From an uncultured Synergistales bacterium (GTDB lineage Bacteria; Synergistota; Synergistia; Synergistales; Aminobacteriaceae): a DNA stretch of 45,736 nucleotides. The notes under the pieces were generated by a model, which ran no database searches, was not told the origin of the DNA, and saw only the letters and a program-made list of their open reading frames with translations. The stretch lies in the NCBI GenBank assembly GCA_905233215.1, contig CAJODC010000006.1, positions 1 to 45,736 of the forward strand, given 5' to 3'. How positions within the stretch are numbered: the stretch's first letter is position 1; each line of letters opens with the position of its first letter. A program made the translations under genes and the position numbers. Of the stretch, positions 1,612 to 33,557 are shown one piece after another.

Positions 1612-1620
1612 ATCAAGCTA

Positions 1621-1626
1621 TATAAT
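1621..1626 (+). promoter_or_regulatory. Possible -10 box for the thioesterase-ttcA-mutS operon
   Basis: A perfect TATAAT lies 34 bases before the start codon at 1660. The -35 position 17-18 bases upstream (TTTCGA) is weak. The element lies next to the divergent gdhA -35 box, so the two promoters are back to back. Confidence 0.4.
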
Positions 1627-1659
1627 ATACTCAAAAAGACAATCAGGGGAGCAGTTTAC

Positions 1660-2088
1660 ATGTCAGATGAAATAAAAATCAACCGTGAAGCGTTAGATAC
1701 ACTCAGGAAAGATGTAGAGTGCAAAACGGGTTTTCAGTTCGTCAAAGTCGAGGACGGCGTTGCAGTCAGTGAACTTGAACTTCAGGAATACCACTTCAAT
1801 CCTTACGGAATACCTTACGGGGGAGTCCTGTTTACGATGGCTGACGACACAGCAGGAGTCGCTTTCATCAGCGCAGGAGGTTACGGCGTAACGGTCAACG
1901 GACACGTGGATTACCTCAGAGGCTCACGAAACGCTCAGAAGCTAATCTGCACCGCTAAAGTCAGAAAAGCTGGACGAAGAATATTCTACATTGACGCTGA
2001 CATAGTGAATGAGAAAGGAGATGACCTTTGCAGATTCAAATTCGTATTCTTCAACATGGAGGACAGAGGCCCTGAAGCTGTTAAGTAA
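1660..2088 (+). CDS. PaaI-family hotdog-fold acyl-CoA thioesterase
   Basis: This is a 142-residue single hotdog-domain protein. The segment GIPYGGVLFTMADDTAGVA matches the PaaI/YbgC-type active-site helix (usually HGG..F.LAD), here with Tyr-Gly-Gly in place of His-Gly-Gly. VNGHVDYLR matches the conserved beta strand. Such enzymes hydrolyse aryl- or acyl-CoA thioesters in the cytoplasm; the substrate cannot be told from sequence. AGGGGAG lies upstream of the ATG. The gene ends 7 bases before the ttcA-family gene, so it is probably first in an operon with that gene and mutS. I see no functional link between the three. Confidence 0.85.
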   Translation: MSDEIKINREALDTLRKDVECKTGFQFVKVEDGVAVSELELQEYHFNPYGIPYGGVLFTMADDTAGVAFISAGGYGVTVNGHVDYLRGSRNAQKLICTAKVRKAGRRIFYIDADIVNEKGDDLCRFKFVFFNMEDRGPEAVK

Positions 2089-2095
2089 CGAGTGA

Positions 2096-2851
2096 GTGTA
2101 TAATGTGTCGAAAAAAATGCTCACACAAAATTTCAATCAGCCTTTATGCAAATCACTCAGGCGCAAAATCGGTAAAGCTCTCTCTCAATGGCACATGATA
2201 GACCCGGGCGATAATGTCCTTGTCGGCCTCTCTGGCGGAAAAGACAGCCTCATTCTTCTTCACGCCCTTCATGAATTTCAACGAAGAAGCCCCGTGAAAT
2301 TTTCACTTGCTGCCTTCACCGTGAAACTCTCAGGCCTCGACACTTCACCGCTCCAAGCCTATTGCGACTCTCTCGGTGTACCCTTCAGCGTCATCGAACA
2401 CGACATCATCGCCATCATAAACGCTAGGAACGAGAAATCGCCCTGTTCATTCTGCTCAAACATGAGACGGGGAATAATCAGCTCATGGGCAAGTCAGAAC
2501 GGTTACAAGAAACTCGCTCTCGGACACACTCTTGATGACGCTGTTGAAACTTTCTTCATGAACTTGATACACACAGGGCGTGCGAAAAGTTTTCAGCCGA
2601 AATTGTTGATGACAAGAACGGGCGTTACTGTGATTCGGCCTCTTGTACTGTCGACAGAAGCAGCGATAATTGACGAGGTGAAACGCTTGAGTCTTCCGGT
2701 CGTCAAAAGTCCCTGTCCTTTCGCTGGACACACGGAACGGCAGAGAATCCGGGAATACATTTCCGAACTTGGCAGGAACGTTCCAGATTTATACGGTAAA
2801 ATATTACACGCACTGCAAAATTTATCCGACTCCGAAAGCTGGCAATCATAA
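2096..2851 (+). CDS. TtcA-family tRNA thiolation ATPase (PP-loop)
   Basis: TtcA proteins make 2-thiocytidine at tRNA position 32 using an ATP-adenylating PP-loop and an iron-sulfur cluster. The PP-loop motif is clear (VGLSGGKDS, near residue 44). A CxxC pair follows (CSFCSNMRRG), then LGHTLDDAVETFFMN, typical of the family. A third cysteine lies in SPCPFAGHTERQR, where E. coli TtcA has PCNLCGSQ. At 251 residues it is shorter than the roughly 310-residue E. coli enzyme, so it may be a related subgroup rather than a strict orthologue. The start is uncertain: GTG at 2096 is used here, GTG at 2105 and ATG at 2117 are alternatives, and none has a strong ribosome site. The gene lies 2 bases before mutS. 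Confidence 0.8.
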   Translation: MYNVSKKMLTQNFNQPLCKSLRRKIGKALSQWHMIDPGDNVLVGLSGGKDSLILLHALHEFQRRSPVKFSLAAFTVKLSGLDTSPLQAYCDSLGVPFSVIEHDIIAIINARNEKSPCSFCSNMRRGIISSWASQNGYKKLALGHTLDDAVETFFMNLIHTGRAKSFQPKLLMTRTGVTVIRPLVLSTEAAIIDEVKRLSLPVVKSPCPFAGHTERQRIREYISELGRNVPDLYGKILHALQNLSDSESWQS

Positions 2852-2853
2852 AC

Positions 2854-5421
2854 ATGATACCTTCTGACATAAAAATCACTCCATGGCTTGAACAGTACAA
2901 GGCCTTCAAAGAAGAATACCCCGACGCAATTTTACTTTTCAGAATGGGCGACTTCTACGAAATGTTTTTTGACGATGCCAGAAATGCCGCCGACACTCTC
3001 AACATCGCATTGACCGCAAGAGACCCCGAAAAGAAAATCCCGATGGCCGGAATCCCTCATCACGCTCTAAATTCTTACTTGTCCCGCTTGATTCGAGCAG
3101 GCTACAGAGCCGCAATCTGTGAGCAAATCGGAGAGCCTAACCCGAAAGGAATCGTTGAACGCAGAGTCATCAGAGTCGTTACGCCCGGAACGTACCTTCC
3201 CGATGATCAGGCAGGCGAGTCGGCTCATCTCGCTTCAGTCTGGCCGATGAAGGGACGTATCGCTATGGCTCTGCTCTCGGTCAACACCGGACAGCTTGAG
3301 GCAGGGACATTGAGTCTTCGTGATGCTGAAGCTGTGATGTCGGCGTTCGCACCCGGCGAGGTACTTTACCCGTCAAACATAAAGACGCTCCCTGAATTTT
3401 TGCAGGGCTATAACTTACGAGCCGTTTCAGCCGAGACATTCAAACCCGAAAACGCTTCGAGAAGACTCATGTCGGCTCTTCACGCCTCAAGGCTTGAGGG
3501 CTTCGGGATTTCTGACAATGACCCATGCAGCGGATCAGCTTGGGCAGCTCTGGACTACCTGACCGCTACACAGTTCAGCTCGCTCGGTGATGTCCTGAAA
3601 CTTTCGCCACTAATCATCAAGGACAGAATGAGCCTCGATTCTTCAGCTCAGAGAAACCTCGAACTGATACCCGAAACATCAGGCGCAAGCGTTTCTCTCT
3701 TCTCATCAATCGACAAGTGCAGGACAAACGCTGGAAGACGTACCCTCAAGGATTGGCTGCTTCGTCCGTTGATGAACGTTAAAGAAATTTCGCGCCGTCA
3801 GGAATACATCAGGGTTCTTGTCTCATCGCCGGGCGAATGCGCACAGCTTCAGGACGCTCTTTCGGGTACACGAGATATTGAACGCTCATTGTCTCGTCTT
3901 GCACTAGGCACGGGCAACCCTATGGATTTGGGAGCGATAAGAGAGACATTGCGACTGATTCCGACGGTCAAGGCGATAAATTTTGGTGAACCTTTGAGGG
4001 CGTTACAGGATTCTTTGCCGAACACATCGAGGTTGAGCGAATACTTAGAGTCGGCACTTGAGGAGAATTTGCCGAGACAGCTCGGAATGTCGGCGGTGAT
4101 TCGTTCATCGTTTGCGCCGGAACTGTCAGAACTCCGGGACTTCTCGCAGAAGGGCGAACAATGGCTGTCGGAATATGTCGAACGTGAACGGATAGCGACA
4201 AGTACGCCGAAACTCAAGGCAGGTTACACGAACGCTTCAGGATATTATCTTGAGACCGGGAAAGCTGGACTGACGTTTCAGCCGGAGAATTTCAGACAGA
4301 CACAGACTCTCGTAAACTCTAAACGTTACGTTACGCAGGAGCTGAAGAATTTTGAGGCAAGAATGAAGAATGCTGAGGCTGAAATTTCACGCATCGAGTC
4401 TGAACTGTACAGGAAAGTTACCGCTCACGTTCTCGAAAACAGCAGAGACTTGCAGATGACCGCGAGACTTCTGGGAAAACTTGACTGCACAGCGTCATGT
4501 GCCGAGATTGCGAGAACAGGAAGTTATTGCTGTCCTGTCGTTGATGATTCTGACGTTATCGAAATCAAATCAGGCCGACACCCTGTAATTGAACGTGAAC
4601 TGAACGACTCAGTTTTTATCCCGAATGATGTCATCATCGACAGCAAGAGCCGTGTAATCATTCTGACAGGTCCCAACATGGCCGGTAAATCAACATGGCT
4701 GAGAATGACTGCACTAATTGCGATAATGTCTCAGGCTGGAATGTGGGTACCTGCCGAGTCTGCGAGAATAGGACTTGTCGACAGGGTGTTCACTCGAATC
4801 GGAGCAAGAGATGATTTAGTGAGAGGCTCAAGCACTTTCATGATTGAAATGTTGGAGACCGCTAATATTTTGAACAACGTAACGGACAGAAGTTTAATCA
4901 TTCTCGATGAAGTCGGCAGAGGTACGGCCACTTATGACGGAATGAGCATAGCATGGGCGGTGCTGGAATACTTGCAGGGAGCGTCAAGAGCGAGGGTGCT
5001 TTTTGCTACTCACTATCATGAGCTGACGTGCCTTGAGGAGAGACTGCCCGATGTTGTGAATTACTGCATGACGGTCTCAGAAGGCAAAGAGGGAATAATG
5101 TTCCTTCATCAGGTTGTGAGGGGCAAAGCTGGGAGGTCATACGGTCTTGAGGTTGCGAGGATTGCCGGACTTCCTGATGTTGTTCTGAGACGTGCGTTTG
5201 AGCTTCTGAATATTTTTGAGAATGACGGTATCGAAACGGCTGAAATACCTGCTCCGCTTCCACAGGTCGCATTGAAACGGCAAATAATGTTATTGTCGCC
5301 TGAGAATGACGCTATCGTTGAGGAACTTGCCGAGATTGACACGGACAACATAACGCCGAAAGAGGCATTGAAGATTCTTGACAGAATGAAAACGAAATGT
5401 CTTGAGGCTCGCGCTATGTGA
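2854..5421 (+). CDS. mutS: DNA mismatch repair protein MutS
   Basis: MutS recognises base mismatches and small loops and recruits MutL. The mismatch-reading motif GDFYEMF lies near residue 31. The C-terminal ATPase has Walker A GPNMAGKST (about residue 606), Walker B ILDEVGRGT (about 685) and the signature FATHYHEL. The length of 855 residues matches MutS1 proteins (E. coli 853). The gene starts 2 bases after the ttcA-family stop, so it is probably co-transcribed. mutL is not adjacent. Its stop overlaps by 8 bases the end of the convergent gene at 5414-5986. Confidence 0.97.
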   Translation: MIPSDIKITPWLEQYKAFKEEYPDAILLFRMGDFYEMFFDDARNAADTLNIALTARDPEKKIPMAGIPHHALNSYLSRLIRAGYRAAICEQIGEPNPKGIVERRVIRVVTPGTYLPDDQAGESAHLASVWPMKGRIAMALLSVNTGQLEAGTLSLRDAEAVMSAFAPGEVLYPSNIKTLPEFLQGYNLRAVSAETFKPENASRRLMSALHASRLEGFGISDNDPCSGSAWAALDYLTATQFSSLGDVLKLSPLIIKDRMSLDSSAQRNLELIPETSGASVSLFSSIDKCRTNAGRRTLKDWLLRPLMNVKEISRRQEYIRVLVSSPGECAQLQDALSGTRDIERSLSRLALGTGNPMDLGAIRETLRLIPTVKAINFGEPLRALQDSLPNTSRLSEYLESALEENLPRQLGMSAVIRSSFAPELSELRDFSQKGEQWLSEYVERERIATSTPKLKAGYTNASGYYLETGKAGLTFQPENFRQTQTLVNSKRYVTQELKNFEARMKNAEAEISRIESELYRKVTAHVLENSRDLQMTARLLGKLDCTASCAEIARTGSYCCPVVDDSDVIEIKSGRHPVIERELNDSVFIPNDVIIDSKSRVIILTGPNMAGKSTWLRMTALIAIMSQAGMWVPAESARIGLVDRVFTRIGARDDLVRGSSTFMIEMLETANILNNVTDRSLIILDEVGRGTATYDGMSIAWAVLEYLQGASRARVLFATHYHELTCLEERLPDVVNYCMTVSEGKEGIMFLHQVVRGKAGRSYGLEVARIAGLPDVVLRRAFELLNIFENDGIETAEIPAPLPQVALKRQIMLLSPENDAIVEELAEIDTDNITPKEALKILDRMKTKCLEARAM

Positions 5422-5986
5422 GAATTTCACGGACTTTTGACGCTATAGCCGGGAGGAGGTCAAATTCTGTTGACAGTTTCTCCGCTGTCATGGCCTTTGT
5501 CGAATCATTGACGGGAATATACGTTATGTCATTGTCGCCGTACTTCTTAGGGGCGTTTTTGACGACGAGAATCCAAGCGCAATGTCTCACGGCTTCATCA
5601 TGACTCATTTTTTTGACTGACTCGCGTTCTCTCAAAGTCTCTCTCACTTTCGAGACGACTCCCAAAATTCCGACAACAAAAGCAATCGGCCCAATCGCAC
5701 GGAAAACAGGCATGATATTTTTCACCGTCAGCAAAAGAGTCAAAACCGCTCCAATGATTCCAATCACCGCAAACGGCAAGCACTTCAACATAATTCTTTT
5801 TTTCGGGAAAAGAACAGCCTGCACCTCTCTTTCAGCGCAGGCCGTGCAGATTTCGTATTCCTTCGTTTCGCCAAGTGCCTGTACTATTCTTTCGCCGTCA
5901 AAATCCCTGATGTGCAGTGTGTGAACTTCTACCGCACGGAATCTCATTATGTCGGGCAAAAATTTGTTACAGACTAGGCATGACAT
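5414..5986 (-). CDS. Zinc-ribbon plus two-TM membrane protein of unknown function
   Basis: I do not recognise a named family. The predicted 190-residue protein starts MSCLVCNK and has a second CxxC (CTAC) about 45 residues later, so four cysteines could bind zinc or form a rubredoxin-like knuckle. Two hydrophobic segments follow (about residues 70-110: FAVIGIIGAVLTLLLTV and IGPIAFVVGILGVV). A charged cytoplasmic tail ends with DNDITYIPVNDST and a helical C-terminus. The ATG at 5986 was chosen because it makes the cysteine motif N-terminal and sits 2 bases after the stop of the solute-binding protein gene, suggesting translational coupling. It is the last gene of the malate operon and overlaps the mutS stop tail to tail. 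Confidence 0.7.
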   Translation of the reverse strand: MSCLVCNKFLPDIMRFRAVEVHTLHIRDFDGERIVQALGETKEYEICTACAEREVQAVLFPKKRIMLKCLPFAVIGIIGAVLTLLLTVKNIMPVFRAIGPIAFVVGILGVVSKVRETLRERESVKKMSHDEAVRHCAWILVVKNAPKKYGDNDITYIPVNDSTKAMTAEKLSTEFDLLPAIASKVREILT

Positions 5987-5988
5987 TG

Positions 5989-6822
5989 TTAATCTCTGGT
6001 GAAGTGCTTCAAGTGCATGAACATATCCCAATCGTAATACGGTACTGACAGCAATACACCTGAAGGCGCGTCAGGCTGTTTTTCTACGTTGTCCCACACC
6101 TGATACCAGAATACAGCGTCAGCTCGTCCCGACATTAACGCGCTTGTTCTCGCTCCTGATTCGATGTTGAGGAGCTTGATGTTCACGCCGAGACGTTTGC
6201 CGATTTCAGCGAGTACGGCCGTGTTGAAACCGACAGGAGTCCCGTCAGGCGCGATGAGGTCAAGCGGAGGAAGATCGCCCGTAACGGCAACTGTGATTGT
6301 CTCAGCTCCGGGAAATTCCGTGAACGCTTCGGCATGAGGAAGAGTTTTTCCGGGAACGCCGATGTATTTCGACTTGAGGATTCTCATTTTGTTATCGGCC
6401 GTCATTGATGCTAAAGCACCGTTCACCATGCTGCATAGCTTCTGGCCTTCCTCGTCATTCCTGAAACCCATAGCTATATGTGTCGTCCTTGAATGAAGCG
6501 CACAGCATATCTCAGACGAAGGACTGGTATTGGCTATGTATTCGGCGACAGGTTCAGGCAGTGCCGCTTCGTCAATCTTCCCTGAATGCAGAGCCATCAT
6601 CATAGCAGTAAGCGAGTCAAAATACGTGAATGAGTCATCAAAACTGTGAGGAGTGTTCATTATCTTCCAGCCAAAGAAGTTTATCTCCTGAGACTTAATG
6701 AACTCAGCGAACTCTTCGGGAGTCATGTTCTGCTGTGTCAGCGATCCCATTTTCAGCCCTGCACCGAACGCAGAAGCGGCAATGAGTCCCACAATCAGCA
6801 GTGAAAGCAATAATTTCTTCAT
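5989..6822 (-). CDS. Exported solute-binding (SBP_bac_3-like) protein, atypical domain order
   Basis: The N-terminus is a clear signal peptide (MKKLLLSLLIVGLIAASAFG, probably cleaved near AFG-AG). The last 100 residues look like the first half of an amino-acid-type binding protein: TGDLPPLDLIAPDGTPVGFN and GARTSALMSGRADAVFW. Residues 50-170 look like the second half of another such domain (SLTAMMMALHSGKIDEA, then a decoy-like AMGFRNDEEG). The protein therefore reads as two partial binding domains in tandem or a permuted domain. GGGGTG precedes the ATG. It lies 10 bases after the symporter gene, yet no ABC permease or ATPase is nearby. It may deliver substrate to another transporter or act as a sensor; function is unassigned. 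Confidence 0.75.
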   Translation of the reverse strand: MKKLLLSLLIVGLIAASAFGAGLKMGSLTQQNMTPEEFAEFIKSQEINFFGWKIMNTPHSFDDSFTYFDSLTAMMMALHSGKIDEAALPEPVAEYIANTSPSSEICCALHSRTTHIAMGFRNDEEGQKLCSMVNGALASMTADNKMRILKSKYIGVPGKTLPHAEAFTEFPGAETITVAVTGDLPPLDLIAPDGTPVGFNTAVLAEIGKRLGVNIKLLNIESGARTSALMSGRADAVFWYQVWDNVEKQPDAPSGVLLSVPYYDWDMFMHLKHFTRD

Positions 6823-6832
6823 GCTCTCACCC

Positions 6833-8209
6833 CTATAACATACTGCCGAGTGTTGACAGCATCAGAGAGCCTATGATGAGGATTATCGCACCGCCTAGAC
6901 GTGATGAGATCTGAGCGAAGGGCATAAGCTCCATTCTGTGAGCAGCCGACAAAACCGCAACGTCTCCAGTACCGCCCATGTTAGACATGCAGAGCCCGGC
7001 AGTGATTCCGGCCTCAACAGGATAGAAGCCTACAATCGCTCCGACAAGTGCAGCACCGATGAACGCTCCGATGCACGCAAGGAAGCACATCAAAAGATAC
7101 ATCATTGAGAAGCTGCTGATTACGACATCAAGACTCAAGTAGCAGAGACCGATACCGACCATCAGCATTGATGTGAGATTCTTCATGACGAACTGGAACC
7201 ACTGGTAACAGCATACCTCGATGAACTCAGGGAGAATGCCGAAGACTTTGCACAGTGCCACAGAAATAATCATCCATGCGTAGGCGTGAATGTTCACGGC
7301 AGGCACGAGCTTGATCCATATTCCGGCGATGATGTAGCCCCATGCGAAGAATGTTGTAGCGGCAAGAAGACCGATTCCGAGATTCGTAACGGTAACGTGG
7401 TCACGCTTCTTCTGCATTTCGGGCGAAATCTCGAACTCCGCAGGGTCATCATTCGCTCCAGTCTTCATCAATGAGCCTTGACCGTTGAAGAATTTTCCTG
7501 CCAGAACTTTCACGAGTATACCGGCAAGAACGATTGACGTTGCGTTACCGATAGCGACCGCAGGATTCATGATTGAGATAGCTTCCTCTGCTGTCATAGT
7601 TCCTGATGACTCGAAAATTTTGCTGAGAGGCACTGCGCCTGCTCCCATTCCACCGCCCATGATGGGAAGAGCGATGAGAAGCAAAGCCTTGACGACACCG
7701 AATCCGCTGAAGTGTCCTGCTAATGCGACAAGACCGAACGAAACAATCAACGCTCCGAAAATCGCCGGGAAGTAACGAGCCGCCGCCTTCACGAGGAGCT
7801 TTCTATTCATTCCGAGAATTGAGCCTGTGATTAACGCTGCAATGTAAAAGTCAAGGAATGCTCCGGCAGGTTTGAAGAACGTGTCAATATTCTGCATCAG
7901 AATAGCAGTGAAACCGCCCTTGCCGATTAAGCCGGAAATCATGTCGAACGCGCCAAAGAAATTCATGTAGCGCAAAAATCCCATTCCGAAAATTATTACG
8001 ACAGGCCCGCCCCCCAAGAACGTATTAACGATAGGGAGATTGTCGCCGATTTCCTAAAGTATCGCACCGCAGACAATCATGAACGCGAAACAACCGGCCA
8101 TACCGGCAGGAAGCACTCCGAGCATTGCAGCAAGAAGAACGACAACAGCAAAGGACGCGAAATATTTTGGCGGTAAGTTGAAAATCTTGAAGCCTCTGTA
8201 TTCTTCCAT
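6833..8209 (-). pseudogene. 2-hydroxycarboxylate (citrate/malate:Na+) symporter interrupted by an in-frame TAG
   Basis: The 2HCT family (CitS, MaeP, MleP) exchanges or co-transports malate, citrate or lactate across the inner membrane. Family hallmarks are present: the first GGxG loop (MGGGMGAGAVPLS) and the second (MSNMGGTGDVAVLSAA), then LMPFAQISSRLGGA and many hydrophobic helices. Reading from ATG 8209, the frame encodes MEEYRGFKIFNLPPKYFA and so on for 51 codons, meets TAG at 8054-8056, then continues in the same frame with EIGDNLPIVNTFLGGGPVV, which is normal family sequence. A full product would be 458 residues, the usual size. Restart inside (TTG at 8017) has no ribosome site and would lose the first helix. 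The gene's own stop is also TAG. It lies 3 bases after the malic enzyme gene. A nonsense mutation, suppression, or a base error are the options. Confidence 0.85.
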
Positions 8210-8212
8210 GAC

Positions 8213-9388
8213 TTATAACCTCGCTACACCTGATTTTCTTGCCGCTTCAGCGACTGCCTTTGACACTGCCGGTCCGACTCTGGGGTCAAACGCTGCCGGA
8301 ATGATGTAATCAGGGCCGAGCTTGTCGGGTTCGACCAAATCCGCAAGAGCGTGAGACGCGGCAACCTTCATGGCCTCGTTGATGTCGCTTGCTCTTACGT
8401 CAAAAGTGCCTCTGAAGATTCCCGGGAATGCGAGAACGTTGTTGATCTGATTCGGGAAGTCGCTTCTTCCTGTTGAGATTACAGCCGCTCCAGCCGCTTT
8501 AGCGTCATCGGGGAAAATTTCGGGCGTAGGGTTGGCGCAGGCGAAGATTATCGGGTCTTTTGCCATTGAGCGCACCATGTCCTGAGTCACGCTGTTGGGT
8601 GCTGACACTCCGATGAAGACATCTGCGCCCTTCATAGCATCGGAGAGCGAGCCTTTGAGTCCTTCGGGGTTAGTGATCTCGGCCATCTCGGACTTGATCC
8701 AGTTCATGCCCTTCTCTCGTCCTTTGTAGACGATGCCTGTGCGGTCGCAGAGTGTTACGTTCTTGAGTCCTGCTGAGATGAGTAATTTTGTGATTGCTAT
8801 TGCCGCTGCTCCTGCTCCATTGACGGCGACTTTGATGTTTCCGATGTCTTTGCCGACAACTTTGAGGGCATTGATGAGTCCGGCGAGAGTGATTACGGCT
8901 GTTCCGTGCTGGTCATCGTGGAATATCGGAATGTCGCAGCGTTCTTTCAGTTTGCGCTCAATCTCGAAACATCTCGGTGCTGCAATGTCCTCAAGGTTAA
9001 TTCCGCCGAAAGAGCCTGAAATGTTGTAGACGGTCTCAACGAATGCGTCAACATCTTGTGTCTTGACACAGAGAGGGAAAGCGTCAACGCCTCCGAACGC
9101 CTTGAACAGAACGCATTTTCCCTCCATGACGGGCATACCTGCTTCAGGGCCGATGTCGCCGAGTCCGAGTACCGCGCTTCCGTCAGTAACGACGAGACAG
9201 AGATTATGACGGCGTGTGAGGTCATAACTCTTGCTGACGTCCTTCTGAATCGCAAGGCAGGGTTCGGCTACACCGGGAGTGTAAGCGAGCGACAAGTCAT
9301 CTTTCGTTGCTACCGGGACTGTAGCAATGACTTCGATTTTCCCCTTCCACTGTTCGTGGAGCCTGAGTGATTCCTTTGCGTAATCCAT
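8213..9388 (-). CDS. Malic enzyme (oxaloacetate-decarboxylating malate dehydrogenase)
   Basis: This enzyme oxidatively decarboxylates malate to pyruvate and CO2 with NAD(P)+. The 391-residue length fits the short bacterial type without a phosphotransacetylase domain. Motifs seen: [10 protein letters not shown] at the N-terminus, the nucleotide and catalytic segment [24 protein letters not shown], the Rossmann NGAGAAAIA, and [10 protein letters not shown] strong AGGAGG lies 10 bases before the ATG. It is first in an operon with the 2HCT symporter and the solute-binding protein, which indicates malate (or citrate-derived malate) use. Cofactor preference is not decided by what I can see. Confidence 0.93.
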
Positions 9389-24507: not shown

Positions 24508-25437
24508 TTGAAATTCGCGCTGGTACTGTGTCTTGCCGTAATCGCTGATGAAATTTTCGGCGACCCTGCAAGATTCCCTCACCCTGTGAGAATGATCGGA
24601 AGGGTGATAAATTTTTGGCACAGGATAATTTTTTCGGACACTGAGTCATTTTTTGACGGCCTCGCTGTTTCGCTTTTGACGATTTTTACGGCGGGGCTTT
24701 TTGCTGGATTGACAGCGGTTTTGGTTGACGGCAATGTGATTTTTCAGGTTTACGCTTTATACAGTGCCATTGCTTGGAGAGACTTGAAGGACGAGACAGC
24801 ACCAGTATTTTTCGCTCTCGTCAAAAAAGATTTTGACTCAGCGAGAAAATATTTGTCGTTCGTTGTCGGACGCGATACTGAAAATCTTGATGAGACTGAA
24901 ATCGCTCGTGCCGTGATTGAGACAGTCGCTGAAAATTCTGTTGACGGCGTGATTTCAGTGATGTTCTTCGCAGCAATCGGTTACGCTGTGAGTCCCGTCT
25001 GGGGAATGCCCGTCATCGTCTGGGCGTTCAAGGCTGCAAGCACTCTTGACTCGATGATAGGCTACGAAAGTTTCGGGCGTTATGGGACGGCTTCAGCGAG
25101 GATTGACGATGTTATGAACTTTTTGACGGCTAGAATCGGAGGATTGATGATAGTGTTGACTGGAGGAAATTTCCGGGAGGCTTTGAGGGTTTTCGCTTCT
25201 GACAGGACGAAGCACAAGAGTCCCAACAGCGCACACCCTGAAAGTGCTTTCGCTGGCGTATTGGGACTCAGGCTCGGAGGAGGAGCGTTCTACGGCGGAA
25301 AGTTCGAGGCTAGGCCGTTCCTGAATGAGGCCGGGAATGATCCTGTTACGGCTGACATAGTAAGGGCTTGGAAGGTGCTTGATGTGTCGTGCTTTGCGTT
25401 CACGGGAATTTTGGTGATTCTCTCATGCTTGAGTTGA
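24508..25437 (+). CDS. cbiB: Adenosylcobinamide-phosphate synthase CbiB
   Basis: CbiB attaches an aminopropanol phosphate arm to adenosylcobyric acid at the inner membrane. The 309-residue protein begins LAVIADEIFGDPARFPHPVRMIG, typical of the family, and has RDLKDETAPVF, VIETVAENSVDGVISV, the conserved AASTLDSMIGY and SARIDDVMNF, and NSAHPESAFAGVLGLRLGG. Several hydrophobic segments are present. The start appears to be TTG at 24508; no clear ribosome site is seen. It overlaps the next gene by 13 bases. Cobalamin genes in this window fall in two separate places. Confidence 0.93.
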   Translation: MKFALVLCLAVIADEIFGDPARFPHPVRMIGRVINFWHRIIFSDTESFFDGLAVSLLTIFTAGLFAGLTAVLVDGNVIFQVYALYSAIAWRDLKDETAPVFFALVKKDFDSARKYLSFVVGRDTENLDETEIARAVIETVAENSVDGVISVMFFAAIGYAVSPVWGMPVIVWAFKAASTLDSMIGYESFGRYGTASARIDDVMNFLTARIGGLMIVLTGGNFREALRVFASDRTKHKSPNSAHPESAFAGVLGLRLGGGAFYGGKFEARPFLNEAGNDPVTADIVRAWKVLDVSCFAFTGILVILSCLS

Positions 25438-26402
25438 TACACGGTGCCAATCCCGAAAATCTTTTCCGTGCTTTCGGTGTTCCTGTTCCCGAAAAGATTC
25501 TCGACTTCAGCACTAACACTAACGTCATCGCATGGCCGAAAATCACTCTTGACGTTGAGCGTATCGCCTCAAGTTATCCTGATCCCGAATGCAACCGCCT
25601 CCGTAAAATCATTTCGGAGCGTGAGAGAGTCCCGGTGTCAAAAATATTATTCACTAACGGAGCGAATCAGGCTATATTCCTTCTTGCCGGACTTTTCACC
25701 GAAAACACAGCAATATTACAGCCCTGTTACGGCGAATATTCGAGGGCGTTCAGGAATGCGGAGAGTATTTTTTCGCTTGACGGTGCAAAAAATTTCCGAC
25801 ACGTCATAATCTGCAATCCCAACAACCCTACAGGCCGTTTCATTCCTGACCTTTCAAGAACGTTAGCGTCAAATCCCGAAACGATATTCATCATTGACGA
25901 GTCGTATGTAGATTTTCTGACGTTCAAAAAGTCTGAAAGGCTCGTTGATTTTCACAACGCCGTGATATTGAGGTCATTGACAAAAATTTTTCACCTCAGC
26001 GGAGCGAGAATAGGTTATCTCATCGCTGATGAAAGCATCGTTGACGCTGTTAAAATGAATATGCCCTCATGGAGCGTGAACGCCTTTGCTCAAGAATTAG
26101 CGTTGAAATTTCTGAATGACGATGAATTTTTGAGGAGAACGAGAGATTTTTACCGTCTTAATACTCCATTGTTCATGAATGAGCTGAAATGTTTGGGACT
26201 TGAGGTGATTGAGTCTGATGTGAATTTCTTTCTGTTGAAGGCTGACGATGACAAGAGATTGATTCGTTTTTTGCTGACGAATGGAATCGCTGTCAGGCAC
26301 ACGAGGAATTTCGAGTCTCTTGACGGGAAGTATATCAGGGTTTCAGTCAGGAGGCCGGAAGAGAATGAAATTTTTGTTGAGGCTATGAGGGATTTTGTGT
26401 AG
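25425..26402 (+). CDS. cobD: L-threonine-O-3-phosphate decarboxylase (CobD-type PLP enzyme)
   Basis: This class I aminotransferase-fold enzyme makes aminopropanol phosphate, the substrate for CbiB. ATG 25425 gives MLELIHGANPENL, the usual N-terminus with GANP. The FTNGAN segment, NPNNPTGR (131-138), the IIDESYVDF motif with the PLP-contacting aspartate, and the SLTKIFHLSGARIGY motif with Lys197 as the PLP anchor are visible. The 325-residue length is near the 360-residue family average. It overlaps cbiB by 13 bases at the start and converges on cbiA with a 20-base overlap. Histidinol-phosphate aminotransferase is the main alternative, but the cobalamin context and the HGANP start favour CobD. 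Confidence 0.85.
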   Translation: MLELIHGANPENLFRAFGVPVPEKILDFSTNTNVIAWPKITLDVERIASSYPDPECNRLRKIISERERVPVSKILFTNGANQAIFLLAGLFTENTAILQPCYGEYSRAFRNAESIFSLDGAKNFRHVIICNPNNPTGRFIPDLSRTLASNPETIFIIDESYVDFLTFKKSERLVDFHNAVILRSLTKIFHLSGARIGYLIADESIVDAVKMNMPSWSVNAFAQELALKFLNDDEFLRRTRDFYRLNTPLFMNELKCLGLEVIESDVNFFLLKADDDKRLIRFLLTNGIAVRHTRNFESLDGKYIRVSVRRPEENEIFVEAMRDFV

Positions 26403-27690
26403 ACTTCAAGAAATTTTCGGCGACATCAGGATAACCCCAGAAATTCACATGAAGCCATGACGCTAACATTCTTTCACCGGCAAAACCTGTCAGTCCCAAA
26501 ACGCTTCCGTCCCTTCGAGTTACCTCAAACACAGGCCGTGACTCGCCGTCAACCCTTCCGTAGTGATACTCATGACCACGAAGCACACCGCCCTCACTGC
26601 ACAGCAAGTTATCCCTCAATGCCCTCGCCTCTCTGTAACCCATTACGGGACGTTCCGACATTTTTGCGTCAAAAGGAATCACTCCGGCCATGTCAAAATC
26701 GTTAATCTTTCGGCACAAATACATCATTCCACCGCATTCGGCCAAAATAGGCTTCTTGCCGGCGATTTTCCTCACACTGTCAATCATGGCCGTGTTTCCC
26801 GAAAGTTCATCAGCAAAAACTTCAGGATAACCGCCAACAAAAATATAACCGTCAGCATCAGGCAGAGAGTCATCACTAATCGGACTGAAACTCACAATCT
26901 CAGCTCCAAAACGTTCAAGCATCATCAAACTTTCAGGGTAACAGAACGTGAACGCTTTATCTTGAGCGACTCCGATTTTCACATTGTAAACTTTTTCCGG
27001 GTACGATTGTTTACTGTTCGGCCAAAAAAATTTTGACTCTTCCGCAACATTCAGCATCGAGTCAACGTCAACAGAACTCTCAAATTTCACTCTCAATCTT
27101 TCAGCGTCAAAGCCGTCATTCTCTTGTGAAGTGAGCAAACCTAAATGTCTTTCAGGAATCTTGAGGCCGTCATCACGTCTCAACGCTCCAAAAAATTTTA
27201 TGCCTTTCTCCTCAAGCGATGATGAAATTATTTTCTCGTGATATTCCGAGCCTGTGAAGTTCAATATTACCCCTGCTATTTTCACTCTGTCATATTCCCT
27301 CAAACCCAACGCAACAGCGGCGGCACTCTCACCCATTGAACGGGCGTTTATGACAAGAACAACGGGAGCGTCAATCATCTTAGCGATACTCGCAGTGCTG
27401 TTCACGCCTCCATCGTACAATCCCATTGCGCCCTCGATTAACGCTATGTCCTTCCCTGATGATGTCTGTGTGAAAAGTTCCAGCATTCTCTCATCACTCA
27501 TCAGCCAGTTGTCGAGGTTATAGCCCTCACATTTTCCGCATCGTCTAAGATATTCCGTGTCGATGTAATCCGGGCCGGTCTTGTACGCTATGACATTGAA
27601 GCCTCTTTGCCTCAATGTCGACAGCAAAGCACATGTTACAGTTGTCTTTCCTGAACGGCTTGAGGCTCCAGAAATTATTATTGTCTTCAA
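26383..27690 (-). CDS. cbiA: Cobyrinate a,c-diamide synthase
   Basis: CbiA amidates the a and c carboxylates of cobyrinic acid using glutamine and ATP. The 435-residue protein has a P-loop GASSRSGKTTVTC at residues 8-20, then YKTGPDYIDTEYL and the signature ALIEGAMGLYDG. The C-terminal glutamine amidotransferase domain carries the nucleophile in ILAECGGMMYL, and HEYHYGRVD with the catalytic histidine region. It ends 20 bases inside the convergent cobD gene, and its ATG is 2 bases after the thiT stop, so thiT and cbiA form a minus-strand operon. Confidence in the family is high. Confidence 0.93.
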   Translation of the reverse strand: MKTIIISGASSRSGKTTVTCALLSTLRQRGFNVIAYKTGPDYIDTEYLRRCGKCEGYNLDNWLMSDERMLELFTQTSSGKDIALIEGAMGLYDGGVNSTASIAKMIDAPVVLVINARSMGESAAAVALGLREYDRVKIAGVILNFTGSEYHEKIISSSLEEKGIKFFGALRRDDGLKIPERHLGLLTSQENDGFDAERLRVKFESSVDVDSMLNVAEESKFFWPNSKQSYPEKVYNVKIGVAQDKAFTFCYPESLMMLERFGAEIVSFSPISDDSLPDADGYIFVGGYPEVFADELSGNTAMIDSVRKIAGKKPILAECGGMMYLCRKINDFDMAGVIPFDAKMSERPVMGYREARALRDNLLCSEGGVLRGHEYHYGRVDGESRPVFEVTRRDGSVLGLTGFAGERMLASWLHVNFWGYPDVAENFLKSTQNPS

Positions 27691-27691
27691 A

Positions 27692-28207
27692 TCAGAAGGC
27701 TAATTCTCTTTCTAACAGCTTCCAGAGAATAAGAGCAGCTATCCCGGAGATGAGATACTTCGCGCCTAACACAGGAGCGTTATACATGAATGAGTAGACC
27801 CAAACGTTTTGCCCTTCCGGAGCGTATTGAGCGTAAAACAAAACGCCTGACACTACGCTTGAGGCAGTCATTCCAGCCCACGCTACGATCAGACCGAGCC
27901 AGAACGGGTGAAGGTCAGTCATTCCCACGAATGAATAAGCGATAACATAATCGAGCAGGCTTGGGAGTATATAATCCATTGTCGGCTCAAAACGCAGCAT
28001 GATATGCAATAAACCCTCAATGAACCCGGCAGTAACGCCCCACTTCCAGCCCCTTCTGTAAGTGAAAAGAATCAACGGCACAAGCTCGAAGTCAATCGAA
28101 CCTCCATTAGGCATAGTGAAGAGATTAACTCTTGACATTATGTATGACAGAGCGACACATAACGAGCATTCAGCCACAGTCATTTTTATGTTTTGCTTTG
28201 ATGTCAT
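27692..28207 (-). CDS. thiT: ECF transporter S component, ThiT-like thiamine uptake protein
   Basis: Small integral membrane protein (171 residues, about six hydrophobic segments) matching ThiT: SRVNLFTMPNGGSIDFELVP near residue 25 (ThiT has MPxGGSI), then RGWKWGVTAGFIEGLLHIM and YILPSLLDYVIAYSFVGM. ThiT pairs with the EcfAAT module to import thiamine; no ECF module is in this window. AGGAGG lies upstream of the ATG. I see no THI-box riboswitch in the short leader. A thiamine role is inferred from the motif, not from regulation; the cobalamin neighbour cbiA leaves another vitamin possible. Confidence 0.8.
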   Translation of the reverse strand: MTSKQNIKMTVAECSLCVALSYIMSRVNLFTMPNGGSIDFELVPLILFTYRRGWKWGVTAGFIEGLLHIMLRFEPTMDYILPSLLDYVIAYSFVGMTDLHPFWLGLIVAWAGMTASSVVSGVLFYAQYAPEGQNVWVYSFMYNAPVLGAKYLISGIAALILWKLLERELAF

Positions 28208-28309: not shown

Positions 28310-30481
28310 ATGAAAAAGTTTTGCACAGCTCTCTATTTCGTACTGATGGCAGTGCTGACTCTTGCTACACTTCACTCAAGCTGTGGGAGCAATGGCGGAA
28401 GTGTCAGCGGAGACACCAGCACTAAGTCATCACAGGCCAAGAGAATGGCGATAACCTCATCGGCATTCAAGCGCAACGGCTCTTACAACATTTATCGAGG
28501 CAGCAATGTCAGTGTCATCGGAACATCGGCGAAGTACTACGTAACGCCGGAGAATCACGGCACTGAAAAGCTCACGATGAATCTTGAGTACCAGAGCGCA
28601 GTCAGCGAGGATCTTCCGATAGTGATAACTGACTCGGACGACAGCACCGTAATTTTCTCGTACATTCCGAGCAATTCCGGGACTGACACAACATCAACGG
28701 GCGTTCTCAGATTCGGAGGCACTGCGGACAAGATGAAGTACACGAGCCTTACGCTTTCCACAGCGTCAGTCAATGACTCGTCAGTTGTTTTTGACGATGA
28801 CGAGAACATAATCGACATTGTTCTGAACTCTGACGGCACAGCAACAGTCGGTAATACAGTCATCACAGCCAATGATTACGTTTGGCACGCTGACCCTCAG
28901 CACCCGGAACAGTATTGGACGAACGGCATCAACGGCTCTACCGTGTATTACGAGGACGCATACGAGAACAATATTGTCAGCACATTCAATTCCGCTGAAG
29001 GTGTTTACATTGCCCGAGATGTTCGCTACACTCCGAACACGTTGACATTCACGACAAGCCAGACGGCCACGAAGGACGAAGATACCGAGTATGTTGTGTA
29101 CTATGACTTGACGGCCTCAGCTCTTCAAGATGCCCTCACGGATTTGAGCAACGACTACGGAGCGGATTACGGGACAGCGAAGTATATTTTCGCTACTCTT
29201 CCGATGACCGTTGGAGGCGGTATGCCCGGTGATGGCGGTACACCTCCTGACGGCGGACAGGGCGGAACACCTCCCGATGGCGGACAAGGCGGTACACCTC
29301 CGAATGCACCCGGCGGCTTCAGTGCTTCAGCGACAGACACCAGCGCGATACCGTCATTCTCAACGATGACTCACTCGGCCTCAGATGCCTACAAGAATCC
29401 CGTTCTTCACATCACAGAGCCGGGAACTTACAGGCTTTCGGGCAAGTGGCACGGTCAGATATGGATTGAGGCAGGAGCAAATCAAGTCGGACTCATTCTC
29501 AACGGCGTTGAAGTGAGCTGTGATGTCGCCCCTGCGTTAGTGTTCTACGAAGTCTACAAGTGGGCTAAAAATAACGGCTACGACTCTCAGGAAACACTAA
29601 CAGCGAATGACACGTGGAAGACTCTTCATACGAAGATGCTCTCCAGCGATTACTACACGCTTGGAGCTGTCGTTGAGATTGCTGACGGAACGACTAACAC
29701 ATTAACCGGAGCGAACGTTTACAGGATTCTCGAACTTGCTCCGAAAACTGACGATGATACGGGCGAGTTGTACGCAGCCTCAAAGATCGGCAGCGATATT
29801 TCAGCGCAGAAGAAGATGTACAAACTTGACGGAGCTTTCCACTCAAGACGCTCAATCGTAATCGGCGGAGGCGATGAGGGTACAGGCAAGCTCAACATCA
29901 CGTCAACAACATGTGAGGGCCTTGACAGTGAAATGCACATGCTGATAAGCGGAGGCAATATCACGGTTAATGCGCCTGATGACGGTATCAACGTCAATGA
30001 AGATTACGTGTCAGTGTTCGAGATGGACGATGGCACTCTCAAGATCACGTCAACAGGCGGAGACGGCATAGACTCGAACGGCTGGGTATCGATTCAGGGC
30101 GGTACACTCGACATCACCGCAGGAAAAACAAGAATCACACAGGTTGAAGGCGGAATCGACTACAACAACGGCTACTACATCTATGATGACAGCGCGTACA
30201 CGTGGACGAAGGGCGGTACCAACGTTGACCCGAACAACGGCAGTCCCGAATCTAACACACCGACAGACAATGACACTGACAGCAACGAGACTGACAGCAA
30301 CACTACTACAACGCTTCCTGTAACTGAAACGACTGTAGAGATCGGAAGTTCTACATCATTCACGCTGTTCCCAGAGTCATTCGAGGCTGACACGGAAGGC
30401 GCAAGGAACATTCCGTCAACGGGCGAGACATTCCCGCTTGTACACAGAGTGAATGATTTTGCCGGAATAACTGCGAAATAG
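28310..30481 (+). CDS. Exported Cthe_2159-like carbohydrate-binding protein with flanking modules
   Basis: 723 residues with a signal sequence (MKKFCTALYFVLMAVLTLAT) and Cys25 in LHSSC, a weak lipobox. Four parts are visible. Residues 50-155 (YNIYRGS...TMNLEYQSAVSED) are the N-terminal module also found in the next gene. Residues 302-335 are a Gly/Pro repeat (TPPDGGQGG units). Residues 360-625 form a repetitive beta-helix of the Cthe_2159/DUF4353 type (IEAGANQVGLILNGVEV; ISGGNITVNAPDDGI; GGDGIDSNG), a family known to bind acidic polysaccharide with calcium. Residues 680-723 (IPSTGETFPLVHRVNDFAGI) again match the next gene. It probably sits at the outer membrane or surface. Ligand unknown. Confidence 0.7.
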   Translation: MKKFCTALYFVLMAVLTLATLHSSCGSNGGSVSGDTSTKSSQAKRMAITSSAFKRNGSYNIYRGSNVSVIGTSAKYYVTPENHGTEKLTMNLEYQSAVSEDLPIVITDSDDSTVIFSYIPSNSGTDTTSTGVLRFGGTADKMKYTSLTLSTASVNDSSVVFDDDENIIDIVLNSDGTATVGNTVITANDYVWHADPQHPEQYWTNGINGSTVYYEDAYENNIVSTFNSAEGVYIARDVRYTPNTLTFTTSQTATKDEDTEYVVYYDLTASALQDALTDLSNDYGADYGTAKYIFATLPMTVGGGMPGDGGTPPDGGQGGTPPDGGQGGTPPNAPGGFSASATDTSAIPSFSTMTHSASDAYKNPVLHITEPGTYRLSGKWHGQIWIEAGANQVGLILNGVEVSCDVAPALVFYEVYKWAKNNGYDSQETLTANDTWKTLHTKMLSSDYYTLGAVVEIADGTTNTLTGANVYRILELAPKTDDDTGELYAASKIGSDISAQKKMYKLDGAFHSRRSIVIGGGDEGTGKLNITSTTCEGLDSEMHMLISGGNITVNAPDDGINVNEDYVSVFEMDDGTLKITSTGGDGIDSNGWVSIQGGTLDITAGKTRITQVEGGIDYNNGYYIYDDSAYTWTKGGTNVDPNNGSPESNTPTDNDTDSNETDSNTTTTLPVTETTVEIGSSTSFTLFPESFEADTEGARNIPSTGETFPLVHRVNDFAGITAK

Positions 30482-30503
30482 TTTTTACTGTTGACTGAAC
30501 ACA

Positions 30504-30537
30504 GGGGGTACTCCTTTTGAGGGGTACTCTCTTTTTT
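30504..30537 (+). terminator. Rho-independent terminator after the carbohydrate-binding protein gene
   Basis: GGGGGTACTCC (30504-30514) pairs with GGGGTACTCTC (30521-30531) through an 11-bp stem with several G-U pairs, a 6-base loop, and then TTTTTT. It sits 23 bases after the stop. The next lipoprotein gene starts 40 bases downstream. Confidence 0.75.
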
Positions 30538-30576
30538 AGTGTAGAATAGCATTACACATATCACATGGAGGGTATC

Positions 30577-31263
30577 ATGAAGAAAATTCATTTTGCTGTT
30601 TACACAATTTTGATGGCACTTTCGATTTTTTTGCTTAACGGCTGCGGAGGCGGTTCATCGTCAACAGGCACTCCTCAAGACGGCATTGTAACCCCTGAAA
30701 TCAAACAGGTGATAATGCTTGACTCGCCAGCAATCGAACTCAATAAACGCTACAGCATCTACAAAGGCGTTAGACTGACGGGCATGAACGGAGCGAAATA
30801 CTTTGTCGCAAACACAGGAAGCGTTGCCGTTCAGTCAACAATGAATCTCGGTTTCAGCGAAATTGTCTCGCCTGATGAAGCGTTCATTGTCGTCAATGAC
30901 ACTCCCAGCGATGCGGCTCATAAAGGCTCTGTCGTTTTCGCTTACGATCCTTCGGGGGTGAGAGATGAAGTTTTGAGCGGTGCTAATCCGACATACTCAG
31001 GCGGAATGAGATTGACTTACAGGACTCTCAGCCTCACAGGCCCGGTGAACTCGTCAGCAGCTCCGACTGATGCCTATGTCTACAAGGAATATGTATCAGA
31101 CAGAGGCACAACGAAATTCGCCGCAGGTCTCGGAAGTAATCCCAGCTTCGTTCAGGTTGACACAGAGTCATACAACAAAAGGGACGTTCCTTTGACAGGT
31201 AATGTCTTGTGGATTGTCAGGAGGGTTAATACTTTTTCGGGCATAATGTCGGAAAGATGGTAA
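30577..31263 (+). CDS. Lipoprotein, short paralogue of the preceding exported protein
   Basis: The 228-residue protein starts MKKIHFAVYTILMALSIFLLNGC, a good lipobox (LNGC). I use ATG 30577 because GGAGGG precedes it; a start 4 codons earlier is possible. Residues 47-150 align with residues 58-155 of the gene upstream (YSIYKG...AKYFVANTGSVAVQ, TMNLGFSEIVS). The last 45 residues align with its C-terminus (VPLTGN...RRVNTFSGI). The central carbohydrate-binding part is absent. No family known to me covers the shared modules. Its terminator follows. The pair probably arose by duplication, with insertion or loss of the beta-helix. Confidence 0.7.
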   Translation: MKKIHFAVYTILMALSIFLLNGCGGGSSSTGTPQDGIVTPEIKQVIMLDSPAIELNKRYSIYKGVRLTGMNGAKYFVANTGSVAVQSTMNLGFSEIVSPDEAFIVVNDTPSDAAHKGSVVFAYDPSGVRDEVLSGANPTYSGGMRLTYRTLSLTGPVNSSAAPTDAYVYKEYVSDRGTTKFAAGLGSNPSFVQVDTESYNKRDVPLTGNVLWIVRRVNTFSGIMSERW

Positions 31264-31325: not shown

Positions 31326-31694
31326 TTGCTTCCTCATAATCACGATAAGAATCTTCAAAGTATTCTTGACAGAATGCCCGAAACCGGGAAATTTTCTGAG
31401 GCAGCAGAAATTTTTTCACAGCTCGGCGACACAACTAGGCTGAAAATTCTCTGGCTTCTCTGCCACACAAGAGAATGTGTCTCCGACATTGCAGCAGCGT
31501 TGGGAGTGAGCAAGGCTGTTGTCTCTCATCATCTCCAGCTCTTGAGGAGAAGCGGTCTTGTTACGGCTGAACGTGAAGGCCAAGAAATTCATTACTCTCT
31601 CAACGTTACGGACGAAGCAAAATTATTCCACAAAACAATCGAGGCCATGTTCAAAATCACCTGTCCTTCAAAAAATATTGACTCAAAAAACTAA
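31326..31694 (+). CDS. ArsR/SmtB-family metal-responsive repressor
   Basis: A 122-residue winged helix protein. ECVSDIAAALGVSKAVVSHHLQLLRRSGLV is the recognition helix region, in which DIAAALGVS and VVSHHLQLLR are family hallmarks. The N-terminal part has a histidine (LPHNHDKN) and the C-terminal helix has HKTIEAMF, either of which might contribute to metal sensing, but the classical CVC/alpha-5 metal set is not complete to my eye. AAAGGAG lies 9 bases before the TTG start. It is 63 bases before the P1B ATPase and probably represses it, releasing when zinc or cadmium binds. The dyad at 31725 supports this. Confidence 0.88.
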   Translation: MLPHNHDKNLQSILDRMPETGKFSEAAEIFSQLGDTTRLKILWLLCHTRECVSDIAAALGVSKAVVSHHLQLLRRSGLVTAEREGQEIHYSLNVTDEAKLFHKTIEAMFKITCPSKNIDSKN

Positions 31695-31699
31695 AGCAG

Positions 31700-31705
31700 T
31701 ATAAT
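31700..31705 (+). promoter_or_regulatory. Candidate -10 box of the P1B ATPase gene
   Basis: TATAAT lies just after the ArsR stop, about 53 bases before ATG 31758 and about 20 bases before the dyad at 31725. I see no convincing -35. Confidence 0.4.
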
Positions 31706-31724
31706 TCGCACAGCTTTCAAATAT

Positions 31725-31740
31725 TCAAACAATCATTTGA
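31725..31740. promoter_or_regulatory. Putative ArsR/SmtB operator
   Basis: TCAAA (31725-31729) and TTTGA (31736-31740) form a dyad with a 6-base spacer, in AT-rich DNA between the ArsR gene and the ATPase. The arms resemble SmtB/CzrA operator half-sites (TTGAA-type). It sits just downstream of the -10 candidate, a position that would block transcription. Confidence 0.45.
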
Positions 31741-31757
31741 TTGTAGGGGTAATAAAA

Positions 31758-33557
31758 ATGAATGAACACTTGAAGATTGTTGTGCGGGTTGTTACGGCCG
31801 GAGCGGTTCTATCAGCTTTGAATTTCTACGGTGTCGGCATTCCTGCTCTTTATCTTCTTCCGTATCTCATTGCCGGTTATGATGTTATCATCGAAGCTTT
31901 TCGCGGCATAAGGGAAGGCGAAATTTTCGGCGAATGCTTCCTGATGTCAATCGCAACAATCGGAGCGTTGATACTCGGTGAATACAATGAAGCCTGCGCT
32001 GTGATGATTTTCTATCAGGTCGGAGAATTTTTCGCTGATTACGCCTCAGACAGAACAAGAGAGAATATAACGGCGTTGATGGACTTGAGGCCGGATTACG
32101 CCAATCTCGAAAAATCAGACGGAACATCAACACAAGTTTCACCGTCATCAGTGAGCGAAGGCAGTATCATCGTCATCAAGCCCGGCGAGAAGATACCGAT
32201 TGACGGCGTTGTTGTTGAAGGTCATTCAGGCATCGACACAAGCAAGCTGACCGGAGAGAGTATGCCCCGTGATGTCATGGCCGGGAGCGAAGTTCTAAGC
32301 GGCTGCGTGAATCTTTCGGGAGTGCTGAGAGTGAGAACGACAAAAACATTCACACAGTCGGCAGCGTCAAAGATACTCGAACTGATCGAGTCGGCTGGAG
32401 CGTCAAAATCAAGTTCCGAGAAATTCATCACACGTTTTGCGAAAATCTACACTCCTTCCGTGTGTATTGCGGCTCTCTCGATAGCGTTAATCCCTCCATT
32501 GTTCGCCGGGAATTTCCGCGCTTGGGTCTACAGGGCTTTGACGTTCCTTGTTGTGAGCTGTCCTTGTGCATTGGTCGTCAGCGTTCCTTTAGCGTTCTTC
32601 TCTGCTGTCGGCACAATGGGAAGGCGTGGAGTTCTCGTCAAGGGCGGAATTTTCATCGAGAGGCTTGCTGAACTGTCAGCGGTAATTTTCGACAAGACCG
32701 GGACTTTAACACGAGGAGTTTTCGGTGTTACTGGAGTCTATCCTGTGTCGATTAGTGCTGACGAACTGTTACACCTTGCCGCCCATGCTGAGAGATTTTC
32801 ACATCACCCTGCAGCCGATGCCCTGAGACGTGCTTACCCGAACGAGGCTGACTCTTGTGCTGTTACCGACTCGGAAGAGACAGCCGGTTTCGGTGTCTGT
32901 ACGACTGTGAACGGTCATGTTGTAAGAGCAGGAAGAGCGGCGATGATGGAGGGAGTTCCGAAAGTTTCCGAGACAGGAACGGTCATTCATGTTTCTGTTG
33001 ACGGGGAATATTCCGGCCATGTCGTTATCAGCGACACTCTCAAGAATGACGCAAAGTCAGCCGTAGAAGCTCTGAAATCTCTCGGTGTCGAACGTGTCAT
33101 GATGCTCACTGGGGACGCTGAACAGTCAGCAAAAGAAGCGGCAATGTCAGCCGGAATAGATGAATATCACGCCGGGCTTCTTCCGTCCGACAAAGTAGAG
33201 ATCGTGAAGTCAGTGAAGGGCGTGAAGGCGTTTGCCGGAGACGGTATCAATGATGCGCCTGTACTCGCCTGCGCTGATGTCGGAATAGCGATGGGTGCGC
33301 TTGGGAGCGATGCTGCTGTTGAGGCTGCTGACGTTGTGATAATGGACGATGACCTGATGAAAATTCCTGAAGCCGTGAAGATTTCGAGACGCTGCATGAG
33401 AATTGTGAGACAGAATGTTTACGGTTCAATCGGCGTGAAGATGCTGTGTCTTGCGCTCGGAGCGTTGGGAATTGCTGGAATGAGGCTGGCTGTTTTCGCT
33501 GATGTCGGAGTGCTGATTCTTGCGGTGATAAACTCTATCAGGCCAGTGAGGCCTTGA
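31758..33557 (+). CDS. P1B-type Zn2+/Cd2+/Pb2+-transporting ATPase (ZntA/CadA type)
   Basis: The 599-residue protein exports heavy metal ions across the inner membrane. ATG 31758 is chosen for AGGGG 8 bases upstream. Motifs: actuator KLTGESMPRD, SCPCALV with CPC at residues 268-270 in the transmembrane metal site, DKTGTLTRG (phosphorylated Asp at 312), HP in SHHPAADAL, and GDGINDAPVL. The aspartate in the last helix pair (FADVGVLILAV) is typical of the P1B-2 group (Zn/Cd/Pb) rather than copper ATPases. There is no N-terminal heavy-metal-associated domain, so metal entry differs from ZntA. ArsR lies directly upstream. Converges on the LysR gene with a 20-base overlap. Confidence 0.92.
   Translation: MNEHLKIVVRVVTAGAVLSALNFYGVGIPALYLLPYLIAGYDVIIEAFRGIREGEIFGECFLMSIATIGALILGEYNEACAVMIFYQVGEFFADYASDRTRENITALMDLRPDYANLEKSDGTSTQVSPSSVSEGSIIVIKPGEKIPIDGVVVEGHSGIDTSKLTGESMPRDVMAGSEVLSGCVNLSGVLRVRTTKTFTQSAASKILELIESAGASKSSSEKFITRFAKIYTPSVCIAALSIALIPPLFAGNFRAWVYRALTFLVVSCPCALVVSVPLAFFSAVGTMGRRGVLVKGGIFIERLAELSAVIFDKTGTLTRGVFGVTGVYPVSISADELLHLAAHAERFSHHPAADALRRAYPNEADSCAVTDSEETAGFGVCTTVNGHVVRAGRAAMMEGVPKVSETGTVIHVSVDGEYSGHVVISDTLKNDAKSAVEALKSLGVERVMMLTGDAEQSAKEAAMSAGIDEYHAGLLPSDKVEIVKSVKGVKAFAGDGINDAPVLACADVGIAMGALGSDAAVEAADVVIMDDDLMKIPEAVKISRRCMRIVRQNVYGSIGVKMLCLALGALGIAGMRLAVFADVGVLILAVINSIRPVRP

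Follow-up and report, generated by a model that had tools for sequence, protein, structure and literature searches.

A candidate circularly permuted, split domain flanks a Cthe_2159 beta-helix in tandem exported proteins of Synergistaceae

The window, a 45,736-nucleotide stretch of contig CAJODC010000006.1 from an uncultured Synergistales bacterium, carries two exported open reading frames in tandem, head to tail. Their coordinates were verified and are collected with those of their parts in Table 1. The two products, P0001 and P0002, are alike at both ends. BLASTP aligns their N regions (residues 1-158 and 5-165, signal peptide included) at 28% identity over 171 columns, E 2e-9, and their C regions (residues 688-723 and 193-230) at 39% identity over 38 columns, E 2e-5. 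In whole-genome searches each protein retrieves the other (E 5.4e-9 and 1.7e-10). A profile built from 54 N modules matches P0001 at E 3e-42 and P0002 at E 6e-42, both proteins being among its rows. An initial annotation, made from the letters alone, had claimed end modules common to both proteins and had proposed profile searches with them; these results bear it out. It had also suggested looking in the same genome for paralogues with different centres, and the whole-genome searches with each protein found none beyond P0001 and P0002.

By sequence and gene order, P0001 and P0002 evidently are tandem paralogues at a locus that is syntenic within one Synergistaceae genus. Many relatives share the order CbiA/ECF S component, P0001-type gene, P0002-type gene, ArsR, P-type ATPase, with names read from sequences. 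In the window, positions 24508-28207 directly 5' of P0001 hold cobalamin-type genes (CbiB-like, CobD-like aminotransferase and CbiA-like) and an ECF S-component-like gene, again with roles read from sequences. Positions 31326-33557 hold an ArsR-type regulator and, after it, a metal P-type ATPase, both of which are kept 3' of the gene pair in relatives. The hairpin stretch between P0001 and P0002 has a minimum free energy of -27.9 kcal/mol (z -3.85). Sites from the terminator pattern scan, which covers both hairpins at the locus, are no commoner than in shuffled DNA.

Table 1. Features of the P0001-P0002 gene pair (window positions)
Feature	Position	Strand	Remark
P0001, exported protein of 723 aa with N-terminal B-A, then mid, Cthe_2159 helix and C-terminal module	28310..30481	+	
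P0001 signal peptide, degenerate lipobox LHSSC	28310..28384	+	orthologues mostly SGC
P0001 N module half B, residues 44-85 (SSAFKRNGSYNIYRG...KYYV)	28439..28564	+	half-profile 62.1 bits
P0001 N module half A, residues 87-122 (TMNLEY...IVITDSDDSTVIFSYIP)	28568..28675	+	half-profile 52.6 bits
P0001 mid module, residues about 160-300, before helix	28787..29209	+	pLDDT mostly >90
P0001 Gly/Pro-rich linker, GGTPPDGGQ repeats, about residues 303-342	29216..29335	+	predicted disordered; pLDDT <50 at 304-342
P0001 Cthe_2159-type beta-helix, residues 343-640	29336..30229	+	PF14262 and Foldseek
P0001 Asp/Asn/Thr-rich linker	30230..30325	+	predicted disordered; pLDDT <50 at 638-670
P0001 C module, strands 674-678, 682-686, 708-710, 714-722; FPLVHRVNDFAGI	30326..30478	+	
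Intergenic hairpin, intrinsic-terminator-like	30503..30532	+	13-pair stem and T run
P0002, exported putative lipoprotein of 232 aa with both ends, centre apparently lost	30565..31263	+	
P0002 half B, residues 48-87	30706..30825	+	60.7 bits
P0002 half A, residues 90-131	30832..30957	+	58.5 bits
P0002 C module, residues 169-231, strands 172-178, 181-189, 221-229	31069..31257	+	modelled with high confidence alongside B-A
Terminator-like hairpin 3' of P0002	31275..31302	+	pattern scan

Both proteins begin with a signal peptide. Read by eye, a lipobox is present in P0002 (NGC) and in nearly all orthologues (mostly SGC) but is degenerate in P0001 (LHSSC), and lipidation of P0001 may have been lost in the species of the window. 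Neither P0001 nor P0002 has an NCBIfam match to the sorting signal Synergist-CTERM (TIGR04564); L095 alone gives one, below cut-off.

The centre of P0001 matches the Cthe_2159 family (PF14262) by profile and by fold. This is the sole Pfam match in the protein (E 2.3e-25; 89.8 bits against a curated cut-off of 25.8). The AlphaFold2 model (mean pLDDT 82, pTM 0.69) finds two Cthe_2159 structures with Foldseek, 4phb at E 8e-8 with a TM score by target of 0.65, and 4peu at E 2e-7. The Gly/Pro repeat and Cthe_2159-like helix described by the initial annotation are thus upheld. A third conserved module that it had missed, here called mid (YVWHADP...YIARDVRY...YIFATLP), travels with the helix. P0002 has neither a PF14262 match nor a helix in its model. 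Relative to the Cthe_2159 family as known, the helix of P0001 differs in following mid and in sitting between two sequence-separated parts of what appears to be a permuted domain.

Those end parts lie outside the named families, as had been supposed. Pfam and NCBIfam families above cut-off cover neither end of either protein; P0002 has no Pfam match at all, and no NCBIfam match above cut-offs was returned for P0001 or P0002. The N module is narrowly distributed. Among 183 genomes of the order, profile search finds it in 37 of the 43 that belong to the same genus as the window and in 0 of the other 140; the genus loci come nearly all from metagenome-assembled genomes. Public records that match it bear the titles of metagenome-assembled genomes of Synergistaceae, Synergistales or Fretibacterium, and the gut of goat, sheep, deer or reindeer is the source of many. 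No relatives were found among viral contigs. A plasmid search gave two matches, in Paenibacillus (L200) and Pusillibacter (L199), the latter with no credible match to half A or half B, and a phage search also gave two.

The N module consists of two halves, and their order distinguishes the genus. In the aligned N modules half B precedes half A, ahead of mid and the helix, in place of A then B after the helix. Oscillospiraceae proteins retrieved with the mid profile (L165, L166 and L167) have every part of P0001 in common with it but run mid, helix, A, B, linker, C, with A-B after the helix where the studied genus has B-A at the N terminus. Halves A and B of this unnamed post-helix region of Cthe_2159 proteins are both present in the N module. 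The N-module profile matches Bacillota proteins twice with the halves reversed; in L165, profile positions 58-105 come before 16-60, at 32.6 and 18.2 bits. When the L165 segment is doubled, one continuous alignment scores 50.7 bits against 35.9 for the single copy, and the best of 200 shuffles reaches 12.8. The reverse test agrees. A profile of 7 native-order sequences gains more than 3 bits on doubled N modules in 53 of 54 cases, with a median of 24.8 bits doubled against 13.0 single and a maximum of 11.3 over 1080 shuffles.

The C module follows the same comparison. L165, L166 and L167 each contain a single copy of the motif F-x-[LMV]-x(1,4)-[VI]-[NSC]-x-F-[SGAY], close to the C terminus, where it takes the form F-x-[LM]-x3-V-x2-FS. 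It is present in 31 of 315 open reading frames, all of which are members of the family or fragments of them; shuffling those 315 frames leaves 1 with the motif. The C tail profile itself matches Bacillota weakly, at 9.2 bits. Native order was detected by profile in Lachnospiraceae and Oscillospiraceae. In Paenibacillus (L200) and in L169 and L170, from two further Synergistales genera, the half-B match is weak (8.8, 5.3 and 12.5 bits, respectively) and half A was read by eye. The Cthe_2159 proteins of other Synergistales share the window's taxonomic order and helix family, with A-B after the helix in L169 and L170 and mid plus helix in L177 and L179, but none carries the N-terminal B-A module of the studied genus. 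Taken together, the sequence comparisons identify the end unit as an apparent circularly permuted, split form of the post-helix A-B(-C) region of Bacillota and other Synergistales. Since native order is seen in Lachnospiraceae, Oscillospiraceae, Paenibacillus and two other Synergistales genera, the B-A order is most simply a derived state.

The model of P0002 (mean pLDDT 88, pTM 0.78) shows one beta unit, predicted with confidence, to which both ends contribute strands. These strands fall between residues 48 and 152 and then in the C module, mostly at pLDDT >90, with the C strands within blocks of about 91-97. The ends also co-vary. Among P0001-type proteins, N and C module distances correlate at r 0.75, and the partial r is still 0.66 with the helix held constant. 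N and helix distances given C have a partial r of -0.03, and mid distances follow the helix (0.44 given N). Because the P0002 model is confident across both ends and because N and C co-vary, we read the ends as one unit, and they are probably two pieces of one domain. For this domain no solved structure was found. The best Foldseek hits of P0002 are at E 0.075 (PDB) and 0.02 (BFVD), from a search that, as run, would be expected to miss permuted matches, and the best hit of a sequence profile search is at E 0.27.

Two other accounts of the ends can be set against a permuted, split domain. The initial annotation had described N and C as two modules of a scaffold with a swappable centre; on such a view they would be independent and act as separate spacers or anchors, with a centre plugged in between. 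The two are indeed widely separated in P0001, and each shows conservation by itself. Against this, P0002 is modelled with high confidence across N and C, the N-C correlation exceeds what the helix explains, and in native-order proteins the equivalents of N and C sit together after the helix. We consider independent modules unlikely. The structure predictions that the annotation had proposed did recover the P0001 helix and a P0002 beta unit, but that unit is compact and joins both ends. The annotation had further held that its reading would fall if both ends belonged to a known single domain; they do match one permuted region found together elsewhere, but neither Pfam nor NCBIfam has a name for it. 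Alternatively, the likeness between N module and post-helix region could be convergence on a simple beta-strand pattern, with no permutation. Each motif is short, at about 35-45 residues, and outside Oscillospirales the matches to half B are modest. Yet halves A and B match in the same proteins, the doubled alignments are continuous and above shuffles in both directions, and the same partners (mid, helix and C motif) are present. Convergence is therefore highly improbable in our judgement.

In the N-module tree, P0001-type and P0002-type rows form separate groups. Ten short rows fall inside the P0002-type group among full-length orthologues, and two changes suffice to explain them; nine of these, including P0002, form a clade with support 99/93. 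The tree is unrooted, and the change count leaves the direction unfixed. The two types stand side by side at the same locus, so their duplication is the natural root, and with that root the short form is a loss. P0002 thus appears to have lost its mid and helix from a full-length ancestor, and the tree reverses the earlier picture of the larger protein as the one with an insert.

The centre also seems to have been exchanged. The ends of L072 resemble those of L075; up to residue 160, L072 scores 56-72% to L075 and 32-48% to L062. Its centre is mostly L062-like, up to 92%, and the identity profile switches near residues 160 and 640. The N tree groups L072 with L075 at 99/99, a grouping that helix data reject (AU p 7.7e-5). 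It likewise groups L073, L079 and L080 at 98/94, which helix data reject at AU p 1e-47, and N data in turn reject the helix-based grouping (AU p 1e-4). The groups for these AU tests were chosen after the trees were seen, and in L073 the C-end switch in the identity profile is not clear. From these comparisons, L072 and L073 are best read as mosaics in which recombination replaced the centre and kept the ends. Exchange between the two paralogues themselves was suggested by the helix tree and is not significant (AU p 0.26).

The helix also occurs in other settings. In L066 (positions 1614-8846, plus strand, 2410 aa) and L104 (2-2434, plus strand, 810 aa, cut by the contig end), the helix tree places mid and helix within the P0001 group, and the protein has a C-terminal tail that resembles a Synergist-CTERM anchor. 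In L084 (1337-5950, minus strand, 1537 aa), a signal peptide is followed directly by mid and helix, after which come several domains of putative Ig type (He_PIG) as well as a PKD domain.

Loss and exchange of the centre each face a rival. The short form could be ancestral, with a centre inserted in P0001 and again in the P0002 line, and the change count on an unrooted tree is neutral as to direction. Short rows are, however, nested among long P0002-type orthologues at the same locus, genomes typically hold one gene of each type, all relatives of other order carry the helix, and insertion would have to be repeated at the same place. We regard a short ancestor as very unlikely. The mosaics, for their part, could be chimeric assemblies of metagenome-assembled genomes, although a near-identical donor is not seen for them. 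With loss and exchange preferred, the swappable centre of the initial annotation holds in a narrow form: the sequences indicate that the centre can be removed or exchanged while the ends stay together. What does not hold is its variety. Among about 60 places with an N module, no other kind of centre lies between the shared ends. All are Cthe_2159 or absent, and the different glycans that had been envisaged are not supported.

These observations can be joined in one explanation, which we favour with reasonable confidence: a permuted, split domain whose centre was lost in the P0002 line and exchanged in relatives. Its computed parts are the paralogy, the permuted A/B order, the centre loss, the co-variation of the ends and the mosaics. 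P0001 would be surface-exposed, probably as an outer-membrane lipoprotein. Its N-terminal B-A module and C-terminal module would jointly form a single beta domain, here called a clasp, that serves as a base and holds mid and beta-helix outward at the cell surface on flexible, predicted-disordered linkers. The clasp would have arisen by permutation and splitting of the A-B-C region found after the helix in other proteins. A tandem duplication would then have given two paralogues, a later deletion of mid and helix in the P0002 line would have left a bare clasp, and recombination would have swapped the centre in at least two relatives with the ends unchanged. Our literature search found no paper describing permuted ends around a Cthe_2159 domain.

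The Cthe_2159 protein of C. thermocellum is reported, as cited in PMC6712302, to bind cellulose and polygalacturonic acid. Anaerobic rumen fungi have also acquired the domain, with Clostridiales as the probable source (PMC6712302). A Dockerin-Cthe_2159-Cthe_2159 protein appears in the metaproteome of a rumen consortium (PMC7480376). By analogy, the mid and helix of P0001 would bind acidic or cellulosic plant-wall polysaccharide, and tethered binding of such polysaccharide is its likely role. P0002 may have an independent function; the bare clasp could be a separate adhesin, a ligand-free partner or a drifting remnant. We suggest only tentatively, with a slight lean against it, that the clasp evolved as a holder, in which a glycan-binding centre is exchanged between genes through recombination at fixed edges and the emptied P0002 persists as its own protein.

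If the clasp explanation is right, circular permutation, a nested domain and repeated centre exchange, which as a rule occur separately, would come together in a single family that offers dozens of species for comparison. Cthe_2159 proteins would contain a domain missing from every library searched here, and P0002, being small, would allow independent folding of the clasp to be tested directly. Plant-wall binding would then be indicated for rumen Synergistaceae, a family better known for amino-acid fermentation.
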